Shown here: positions 39,202-41,506 of the stretch, piece after piece
Layout of the letters: the number at the start of each line of letters is the position of its first letter
Position numbering within the stretch: the stretch's first letter is position 1
Origin: Kangiella marina
GTDB lineage: Bacteria > Pseudomonadota > Gammaproteobacteria > Enterobacterales > Kangiellaceae
Reading direction: 5' to 3'
Length of the DNA stretch: 64,000 nt
Assembly: GCF_039541235.1 (NCBI RefSeq)
Contig: NZ_BAABFV010000001.1
Span: forward strand, 930,001 to 994,000
Notes under the pieces: generated by a model
Database searches by the model: none
What the model saw: only the letters and a program-made list of their open reading frames with translations
What the model was told of the DNA's origin: nothing
Program-made: the position numbers and the translations under genes

Positions 39202-40308
39202 ATGAGCCTTGCTGATAAAGTTTTAGCCGTTAATGACGATCTCCCGATCCGTACCAACCAACCAGTACACAGCGGTAAAGTTCGCTCAGTTTACTGGTTA
39301 ACCGAAGACGATAGCGCACGTTTAATCAAAGAACGTGGCTATGACGTAGCTGCTGACACGCCGTTAGCGATTATGGTCATCAGCGACCGTATCTCTGCGT
39401 TTGACGCCATCTGGCATGGTGAAGGCGGCATGAACGGCGTACCCGGTAAAGGCGCTGCGTTAAACGCTATCTCAAACCACTGGTTCAAGTGTTTCAGCGA
39501 GAATGGGCTGGCAGACAGCCACATCCTTGAAATCCCGCATCCTTTTGTGTGGATTGTACAAAAAGCCAAGCCAGTTAAAATCGAAGCGATCGCCCGTCAA
39601 TACATCACCGGCTCAATGTGGCGCGCCTACGCCAAAGGCGAACGTGAATTTTGCGGCATCCGCCTTCCTGATGGCCTAGAAAAAGATCAAAAACTTGATG
39701 AGCTGTTAATCACGCCATCAACCAAAGGTATCTTAAAAGGCATCCCTGACGTACCAGAAGCTGACGACGTCAACGTAACTCGACAAAACATCGAAGATAA
39801 CTACCAAGCCTTCGCGTTCCGCAGTAAAGACGATATCGACTTATACGAAAAGCTACTGAAAGAAGGTTTCGACTTAATCAGCGACGAACTCGCAAAGCTT
39901 GACCAGATGTTTGTCGATACAAAGTTCGAGTTTGGATATGTCACTGATAAAGATGGCAACGAAAAACTGATCTACATGGACGAAGTCGGCACGCCTGACT
40001 CATCACGTATTTGGGATGGTTCAGCCTTCCGCGACAACGGCAAAGTCGTCGAAAACTCAAAAGAAGGTTTCCGTCAGTTCTTACTGAACCATTTTGAAGA
40101 CCCAGACATTCTACTAAACAAAGATCGCATGGACGAACGCCAGACACTCGCTCGTGACAACGACCTACCGACAGAAGCTTTAATGAACCTGTCAAAAACT
40201 TACACAGGAATTGCTGAAAAGATTACTGGTAAGAAAATTCAATTGTCAGACAACCCCAAAGCAGAAATCACCCAAATCTTAAAAGACGAATTTAAGCTGG
40301 TTGATTAA
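39202..40308 (+). CDS. purC: SAICAR synthetase (long form)
   Basis: Ligates aspartate to CAIR with ATP in purine synthesis. It has 368 residues, the long type found in Vibrio and Shewanella rather than the 237-residue E. coli type. [11 protein letters not shown] (nucleotide-binding), [13 protein letters not shown] and [15 protein letters not shown] are the family signatures. A C-terminal extension after about residue 280 ([16 protein letters not shown]) is characteristic of the long form. Paired palindromic repeats follow the stop codon. Confidence 0.95.
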
Positions 40309-40321
40309 AAGTCAAAAGACA

Positions 40322-40351
40322 CTGGATCCCGCGATTAAATCGCGGGATGAC
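40322..40351 (+). repeat. 30-bp palindromic repeat, unit 1
   Basis: The unit has the form CTGGAT...ATGAC around a perfect hairpin, ATCCCGCGAT-TAA-ATCGCGGGAT. It is followed after 27 bases by a second copy in the opposite orientation (40379-40408). Confidence 0.8.
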
Positions 40352-40378
40352 AGAAATGAGATTCAAACTAGAATGCTC

Positions 40379-40408
40379 GTCATTCCGTGGCTTGACCACG
40401 GAATCCAG
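40379..40408 (-). repeat. 30-bp palindromic repeat, unit 2 (inverted)
   Basis: The unit has the form GTCAT...ATCCAG around a perfect hairpin, ATTCCGTGG-CTTGA-CCACGGAAT. Read on the minus strand it matches unit 1 in length, in both ends (CTGGAT...ATGAC) and in stem layout. The pair is arranged like a BIME of inverted REP units. It ends five bases from the stop of the GIY-YIG nuclease gene. Confidence 0.8.
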
Positions 40409-40413
40409 CGACT

Positions 40414-40704
40414 TCAAATAATTGTTTCGTATAAATCGTTCCAGTAAGGATTCACCGATTCGATCAAGTCTAGCTTCCACTTCCTTTGCCATTCTTTTAA
40501 ACGCTTTTCTCTTTGAATAGCAGAATAGGAACTTTCATGTTTTTCGAAATAAACTAAGTCATGAATTTGGTACTTATAAGTAAACCCTTCAGTACTGTCA
40601 TATTTATGTTGCCAGACTCGTTTAATTAAGTTGGAAGTTACGCCGGTATATAGAGCTCCATTCCTATGATTCGCCATGATATAAACGTAAAACTCCTTTT
40701 CCAT
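40414..40704 (-). CDS. Single-domain GIY-YIG nuclease
   Basis: A 96-residue protein consisting of little more than a GIY-YIG (URI) domain. VYIMANH and LYTGVT give the paired GIY/YIG strands. The conserved arginine is in LIKRVWQHK, and the metal-binding glutamate is probably in AIQREKRLKEW. Family members cut DNA; small stand-alone ones have no settled role and are often multicopy. It converges on purC, and two inverted palindromic units occupy the space between them. RBS AGGAT precedes the ATG. Confidence 0.88.
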   Translation of the reverse strand: MEKEFYVYIMANHRNGALYTGVTSNLIKRVWQHKYDSTEGFTYKYQIHDLVYFEKHESSYSAIQREKRLKEWQRKWKLDLIESVNPYWNDLYETII

Positions 40705-40771
40705 TGCAATCCTTTGCTTTTTATTGTTAATGAAGACTCTGGTTCCTGAGATCCAGCCACGTGATCACAGT

Positions 40772-41506
40772 TTAAATATTCAAGGTTTTAAAAACTTCTC
40801 CAGCCTTACCCTCAATACAATAATCCACCACCGAACTTTCCGTCGGCTCTGGATTAACTTCTATCACAGTCGCGCCTTGGCTTTTGGCAAGTGCGGCGAG
40901 TCCTGCGGCGGGATAAACTTGACTGGAAGTCCCGACGGATAAAAATAAGTCGCAGGAGTAAGAAGCGCTTTCAGCGTCGCGCCAAGCTTGTTCGGGTAAG
41001 GCTTCGCTAAACCAGACGACGGAGGGGCGAATTTGTCCGCCACATTCAGGGCATTCGATAACAGTCTCCACTCCATCAACGTCACCGTTATAGTCTGCAA
41101 GACATTGCAGGCAGTGATTGCGCCAGATATTGCCGTGAAGTTCGATAACGTCTTTAGAGCCACCAGCTTGATGTAAGCCGTCAACGTTTTGGGTAATTAG
41201 CGTAACGTTTTGTGTTTTAGATTGTTGCCACTTGGCAATGGCTTTGTGAGCATCGTTTGGTTCTTTATTTTTTAACTCATTGCGACGCCACTGATACCAC
41301 TGCCAGACGCGATTAGGGTTTTCTCTAAACCCATCAATGCTCGCCATCTTTTGTGGATCGTATTGGCTCCACAAGCTTTCTTGGGTTTCTTCTTTGTAGG
41401 CTCTAAAAGTAGCGACGCCGGACTCTGCGGAGACTCCAGCGCCAGTTAGAATGGTCACACGTTTAGCATGCTGAATTAACGCTAAAACTTCAGGCTCGAT
41501 ATCCAT
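40772..41506 (-). CDS. cobB: NAD-dependent sirtuin deacylase (CobB-like)
   Basis: Removes acyl groups from lysines using NAD+. It has 244 residues. The Rossmann motif GAGVSAESGVATFR, TQNVDGLHQAGG and a four-cysteine zinc site (CLQC, CPECGG) are present. The Y-x-x-R pair in WYQWRRNE marks the class III sirtuins, which prefer succinyl/malonyl lysine in addition to acetyl. VWFSEALP and VGTSSQVYPAAGL complete the family. It lies 13 bases after the small protein gene and is probably cotranscribed with it. Confidence 0.93.
   Translation of the reverse strand: MDIEPEVLALIQHAKRVTILTGAGVSAESGVATFRAYKEETQESLWSQYDPQKMASIDGFRENPNRVWQWYQWRRNELKNKEPNDAHKAIAKWQQSKTQNVTLITQNVDGLHQAGGSKDVIELHGNIWRNHCLQCLADYNGDVDGVETVIECPECGGQIRPSVVWFSEALPEQAWRDAESASYSCDLFLSVGTSSQVYPAAGLAALAKSQGATVIEVNPEPTESSVVDYCIEGKAGEVFKTLNI

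Follow-up and report, generated by a model that had tools for sequence, protein, structure and literature searches.

Within a window of 64,000 nucleotides of the Kangiella marina genome, the whole stretch of DNA that was analysed, a single-domain GIY-YIG nuclease gene and several palindromic units form a short block between purC and a Sir2-family gene. Below, G000 stands for the K. marina genome, other G numbers for comparison genomes and L numbers for loci. The features, in window coordinates, are as follows.

39202-40308, + strand: purC, left neighbour of the block (PF01259, SAICAR synthetase)
40322-40351, + strand: unit 1, CTGGATCCCGCGATTAAATCGCGGGATGAC, CGTC-type REP, found at the same place in G001, G002 and G005
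40379-40408, - strand: unit 2, CTGGATTCCGTGGTCAAGCCACGGAATGAC, CGTC-type REP inverted to unit 1, found at the same place in G001, G002 and G005
40414-40704, - strand: single-domain GIY-YIG nuclease gene, 96 aa, residue 71 = E (PF01541, 49.3 bits)
40739-40768, + strand: third unit, decayed, on the 5' side of the nuclease gene and oriented as unit 1, placed by alignment with G001, G002 and G005
40772-41506, - strand: Sir2-family gene, right neighbour of the block (PF02146)

Units 1 and 2 are 30 bp each, mutually inverted and 27 bases apart; they sit between convergent genes, and five bases separate unit 2 from the stop codon of the nuclease gene. This arrangement, described in the initial annotation of the window, was confirmed. 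Unit 1 carries a TGTC tag (on the other strand) and a CCA tail, and can pair either as an 11-bp stem with a 1-base loop or as a 9-bp stem with a 5-base loop. Unit 2 carries a CGTC tag, a 9-bp stem, a 5-base loop and a CCA tail. Folded as single-stranded DNA, units 1 and 2 reached -11.6 and -9.7 kcal/mol, respectively, and 0 of 200 shuffles of either folded as well. The third unit has lost its good folding (the segment was folded one base off), and the alignment showed its counterparts to be better preserved in G001 and G002 and partly decayed in G005. The annotation had also suggested looking for the unit throughout its own genome, and this search recovered seven copies of the exact frame CTGGATNCCG..CGGNATGAC in the 2.51-Mb K. 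marina genome and 0 copies of a control pattern written backwards. Two further stem classes, whose outer frame is similar, are present in nine copies (GATCCTGA..TCAGGATGAC) and 14 copies (GATTCCC..GGGAATGAC). Readings of these hairpins as terminators or structured RNAs found no support: 0 terminator-like sites (a G+C-rich stem followed by a T run) were detected in 40250-40850, and there was no match in Rfam.

The units closely resemble the CGTC REP superfamily, whose members, as described in its defining paper, have 8-9 bp stems starting with AT, loops of 4-5 bases, CCA tails and a CGTC, TGTC or CCTC tag, form inverted dimers, and include Neisseria dRS3 (CGTC-1) and the Rickettsia RPE repeats (Di Nocera, De Gregorio and Rocco 2013, PMC3733652). 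Both window units carry one of these tags at one end, a stem starting with AT and a CCA tail, and together they form an inverted dimer; unit 2 also has the stem and the loop of 5, and unit 1 pairs further (11 bp, 1-base loop). The 7, 9 and 14 copies of the three stem classes show that the units are repeated in the genome. According to that paper, CGTC REPs apparently have no dedicated transposase, and it does not mention GIY-YIG, whereas here such repeats are tied to a GIY-YIG gene (PMC3733652).

GIY-YIG was the sole Pfam match of the window protein (PF01541 cut-off, 22.6 bits), which matched no PADLOC entry and no NCBIfam family. Residues Y19, R29, H33, E66 and N85 are invariant among 42 aligned sequences and presumably have the catalytic role of their counterparts in other GIY-YIG enzymes. 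A structure model, which served for fold and secondary structure only, had a mean pLDDT of 94; its closest solved folds were UPF0213 protein BH0048 and Slx1, BH0048 (1zg2) being the best solved structure by both sequence and fold. Upstream of a second K. marina gene of the same subfamily (G000:C1:637106-637478; L009, L031), at 31-110 bp from its start, lies an inverted pair that belongs to another stem class (CCTGA). The third stand-alone GIY-YIG gene of this genome (G000:C1:415983-416228; L008, L139) is YhbQ-like and was used as a control. This gene is present in 20 of 20 Kangiella genomes, without adjoining hairpins.

We scanned a genome collection with an alignment of 17 relatives, which yielded at least 578 confirmed stretches, and kept the best 80. 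The record titles of the best 80 of these at least 578 stretches name Proteobacteria, Nitrospira, Planctomycetes, Patescibacteria, Anaerolineae, Bipolaricaulota, a Rickettsia symbiont and further taxa. Hairpins whose arms reach at least 8 bp were 13 times as dense near the nuclease gene as further out in the best 80 of at least 578 loci (4.32/kb within 250 bp of the gene vs 0.33/kb beyond 500 bp). The initial annotation had proposed counting units beside GIY-YIG genes against other genes and had named the lack of an excess as the outcome that would speak against it. An excess was found: among the 76 testable loci, those with 250 bp on both sides out of the best 80 of at least 578, one or more such hairpins lay within 250 bp of 68 nuclease genes vs 160 of 591 other ORFs at the same loci, and two or more beside 58 of 76 vs 46 of 591 (Fisher p ~1e-38). 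YhbQ/UPF0213-like proteins share the domain and a similar size with the window protein, but their genes behave differently. In the same 41 genomes, a hairpin adjoined 24 of 25 genes of the window subfamily (an orientable unit, 22 of 25), and none lay within 250 bp of any of 27 YhbQ-like genes (these 25 and 27 loci being taken from 30 each after exclusion of contig ends, out of 34 matches each). The only miss among the 25, L029, resembles L038 and L041 in sequence; no adjoining units were seen at these three loci, two of which are at contig ends.

The layout of the units is also regular. An orientable unit (arms of 7 bp or more) occurred within 300 bp at 74 of the best 80 of at least 578 loci and on both sides at 49; at the other six, none was present within 300 bp. 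In the same 80 loci, the nearest unit turned its CCA tail toward the gene in 45 of 57 cases upstream and 51 of 66 downstream, and neighbouring units on the same side were mutually inverted in 39 of 45. The nearest units thus face the gene with their tails, so that it is bracketed by inverted units, an orientation rule drawn up post hoc with part of the locus data already seen. Both marks (a GTC tag and a CC or CT tail) were found on 145 of 172 near hairpins vs 59 of 349 at distances above 1 kb, again for the best 80 of at least 578 loci; among near hairpins with at least one mark, 98 tags were CGTC and 43 TGTC, and the commonest tail was CCA (139). Relatives of the nuclease are also encoded on 60 IMG/VR contigs classed as viral (L181-L240), and 31 of the 47 loci tested there had hairpins with arms of 8 bp or more beside the gene, some short or partial loci having been dropped by hand. 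In a phage collection, 10 records, all from Rhizobium, contained distant GIY-YIG matches at 36-37% identity. At the level of sequence, co-occurrence of gene and hairpins was confirmed as general across phyla.

Having established this association, we asked how unit type relates to the protein. Mapped on the protein tree, unit length required 13 changes, where 200 shuffles gave 30 on average and never fewer than 27 (91 loci), and the core motif 20 changes, where 200 shuffles gave 40.4 on average and never fewer than 35 (92 loci). As judged from these comparisons, unit type tracks nuclease phylogeny. A single residue shortly after the conserved glutamate E66 followed a single base of the unit. 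At 54 loci whose units are 20 bases long, K71 accompanied 33 of 35 units with C at base 6 and 0 of 19 with G. Over all scored loci (109 for base 6 and 87 for base 9, after exclusion of ties, loci lacking a unit with 8-bp arms and loci with another base), base 6 was C at 56 of 58 K71 loci, the remainder being one G and one T, and G at 26 of 27 E71 loci. C/G loci without K71 had 46 G and 6 C at base 6. The K71 rule is broken at seven C/G loci. The window locus conforms to the rule, with E71 in the protein and G at base 6 of both intact units.

Phylogenetically independent pairs for residue 71 and base 6 were concordant in 16 and discordant in 0 of 19 cases (median of 300 pairings), a count that uses all branches, supported or not, of a quick protein tree built without alignment columns 72-84 (residues 71 and 73 are columns 74 and 76); well-supported branches alone give one pair. 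Residue 73 also tracked base 6 (11:1 of 19 pairs). Base 9, the first loop base of units with 8-bp stems, followed residue 79 by a rule weaker than that of residue 71: among C/T loci, R79 went with C at 21 of 22 and E79 with T at 31 of 31, five further loci combined E79 with A or G, and of 22 pairs R79/C9 gave 10:0 and E79/T9 9:0. We ran 105 residue-base tests in a first scan and 3,569 in a wider one, and the wider scan alone fails the Bonferroni limit. Given this number of tests, the pair counts alone are not proof. The IMG/VR loci provided a separate set that had not been used to find the residue-71 rule, although it is not fully independent, since it came through the same gathering alignment and its hairpins had been listed beforehand. 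In that set (52 of 60 loci used, 20 scorable), residue 71 and base 6 paired as K with C at 15 of 15 loci, E with G at 1 of 1, H with C at three and T with A at one. Because separate locus sets agree, we judged the covariation persuasive. We infer that the rule, read on the 3' arm, reflects ordinary chemical preference, lysine matching guanine and glutamate matching cytosine. Predicted recognition of the hairpins by the nuclease is well supported by comparison.

We also compared the distribution of gene and units among genomes. In 20 Kangiella genomes, class-1 units numbered 6-12 in the seven with a class-1 gene and 0-16 in the other 13 (one-sided p 0.0025), and the corresponding comparison for class 2 gave p 0.0087; gene classes were assigned by hand, and both p values ignore relatedness. 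G011 contains 16 class-1 units, and no class-1 gene was found in it. G008 has eight class-1 units without an intact class-1 gene, and its purC locus shows a decayed unit and, judged by eye, may hold a nuclease remnant. G003, G005 and G011 carry 15, 8 and 12 class-2 units, respectively, and no class-2 gene was assigned in them. In a set of 185 genomes of the class, a single broad unit pattern was present in 23 of 39 with the gene (counted as present at E <= 1e-25) vs 24 of 146 without it (Fisher p 3.6e-7); 16 of the 39 gene-bearing genomes had none of the one pattern searched. When the 13 of the 24 gene-less genomes that have at least four units were re-examined at E <= 1e-5, five gave no match and eight only distant GIY-YIG genes, at whose loci no exact unit was found; 13 control genomes with neither gene nor units gave three distant matches in this re-search. 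Genomes that have many units and lack the gene count against a strict dependence. Genome by genome, the dependence of units on the gene, as read from these counts, is real, not strict. In G108, G110, G120, G122, G123, G150, G166, G192 and G217, we observed 14-40 broad-pattern units and no close relative of the nuclease. These nine genomes might have lost the partner, use another mobiliser or contain a gene that was missed.

Comparison of syntenic sites bears on mobility. The gene had a match in 15 of 20 Kangiella genomes (E <= 1e-8), and 27 Kangiella loci, with fragments and divergent copies counted, fell into 10 groups by shared flanking ORFs. All seven class-1 copies (7/7) belong to one flank group; since one flanking gene is common to all of them, the class-1 copy has not moved recently. 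The block lies between purC and sir2 in G000, G001, G002 and G005, purC is followed directly by sir2 in G010 and G012, and other Kangiella species have unrelated sequence or genes in this interval. The interval from purC to the next gene at L123, L126-L128, L130 and L133 holds differing unrelated sequence and resembles a hot spot of gene turnover. At a second site, G013 and G019 carry the gene with units on both sides, the site being 887 bp in G013 vs 66 bp in G005, and G011 has other sequence there. Such occupied and empty sites fit insertion or deletion alike, and no target-site duplication could be defined at the occupied and near-empty sites compared. The initial annotation had proposed that the nuclease recognises or spreads the hairpins. 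Recognition gained support from the excess at nuclease loci, the 0 of 27 YhbQ-like controls and the 16:0 covariation; with spreading, the occupied and empty sites are consistent.

A homologue of the window protein with 52% identity over 90 residues is encoded in N. gonorrhoeae, with nine dRS3 repeats within 500 bp. NZ_CP119142.1 and NZ_CP119140.1, N. gonorrhoeae records of ~2.17 Mb that are labelled plasmids, look by their size like mislabelled chromosomes. Ssn proteins, described by Chenal et al. in Nat Commun in 2025, are reportedly site-specific single-strand GIY-YIG nucleases that act on Neisseria NTS repeats, and are said to modulate transformation and to have thousands of homologues. The N. 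gonorrhoeae homologue is presumably Ssn, and we take the window nuclease to belong to the same Ssn/NTS nuclease family, the homology to the Neisseria protein and the cognate repeats near the gene both being present. If that report holds, the pairing of nuclease and repeat is already known, as it probably is, and the window locus is a new member with another stem class. The two systems share a single-domain GIY-YIG protein beside its own repeats, but the Kangiella units have stems of 9-11 bp with a CCG core, whereas dRS3 has the pattern ATTCCC(N8)GGGAAT (PMC3898611, PMC2911385). A literature search for GIY-YIG with REP or palindrome terms revealed no linking paper among the matches listed, and in the literature surveyed we came across no naming of this family as the partner of CGTC REPs and no account of the bracketing geometry or of a residue-base code. 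The code and the general link to CGTC REPs may be new.

The initial annotation had drawn an analogy to REP elements and their RAYT transposases, which held for layout and failed for the enzyme. REPtrons likewise consist of a nuclease gene flanked by its palindromes, with a repeat type specific to the enzyme (PMC3733652). By contrast, RAYTs are HUH enzymes of the IS200/IS605 group with GTAG-tagged repeats, and the window has a GIY-YIG enzyme and CGTC-type tags. Identity with a RAYT REPtron was rejected, as Pfam detected only GIY-YIG and no HUH transposase, and the tags are CGTC and TGTC, not GTAG.

Our findings make it likely that the block is a module resembling a mobile element, in which a GIY-YIG nuclease gene is bracketed by CGTC-tagged REPs that its product would recognise and probably cut. 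The hairpin might be recognised as folded single-stranded DNA on the lagging strand, at a resected end or in incoming DNA. The nuclease would then cut the hairpin near its base, and repair would follow; we infer cutting from the intact GIY-YIG residues, with the roles they have in other enzymes of this kind, and from the reported Ssn activity. With less certainty, we conjecture that repair of the cut could place copies of units, and sometimes of the entire unit-gene-unit block, at new sites, by analogy with the handling of GTAG REPs by RAYTs but without transposase chemistry. A nuclease encircled by its own sites would keep gene and repeats together, and the window block may be one such case, standing between purC and sir2 with one of its three units decayed.

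How far such a module acts for itself depends on the later steps. The nuclease and its recognition sites could instead be kept by the host, with the enzyme cutting single-stranded DNA at the repeats, for example incoming DNA in natural transformation, and thus tuning gene exchange, self-spread now being minor. We regard this as quite possible, given the reported role of Ssn, the Neisseria homologue among dRS3 repeats and the class-1 gene at one site in all seven Kangiella copies; on the other hand, the patchy presence of the gene (15 of 20 Kangiella genomes), its ten sites and its decayed or absent copies look more mobile or dispensable. Recognition is common to this explanation and to the mobile-element-like module, and the two differ only in the later steps.

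Explanations that leave the nuclease out of account fare worse. That the hairpins serve the flanking genes as transcription terminators or RNA elements, the nuclease being nearby by chance, would suit the position of the window units between convergent genes and the tendency of REPs to lie mostly downstream of genes (PMC3733652). We nevertheless consider it improbable, as units occur upstream too and on both sides at 49 of the best 80 of at least 578 loci, control ORFs and YhbQ-like genes show no excess, and covariation with protein residues would be unexpected. It is more improbable still that variable intergenic hot spots merely gather REPs together with small stand-alone genes, which would make the association functionally meaningless. 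Several other Kangiella genomes do have unrelated sequence or genes in the purC-sir2 interval, and the second site of G011 holds other sequence, but the fixed orientation of the nearest units, the match of unit type to the protein tree and a residue-base covariation with 0 discordant pairs all argue against such passive accumulation.

Taking the module of nuclease gene and bracketing REPs further, we tentatively propose, as an idea that may well be right but that we place short of probable, that GIY-YIG REPtrons are the missing partner of CGTC REPs. Each nuclease would spread its own hairpin family, and sometimes also the gene that encodes it, via single-stranded intermediates, and its choice of repeat would be set by a code after the glutamate, with residue 71 reading base 6 and residue 79 base 9, that point changes can rewrite. 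Di Nocera et al. left open what mobilises CGTC REPs (PMC3733652), and one protein family is now indicated. The residue-base rule yields a prediction for individual bases that one oligonucleotide cleavage assay could check. Should the enzymes copy their own sites, they would provide a second route, beside HUH transposases, to short palindromic repeats; should their action be confined to incoming or exposed single strands, this would give a reason for repeat retention. A compact nuclease family whose specificity can be read as a code could also be useful for single-strand DNA tools.

At one further locus, L179 in G192, a distant GIY-YIG gene is followed downstream, within 250 bp, by two mutually inverted hairpins (GGCCGAAT..ATTCGGCC) that have GTAG, not CGTC, at one end.
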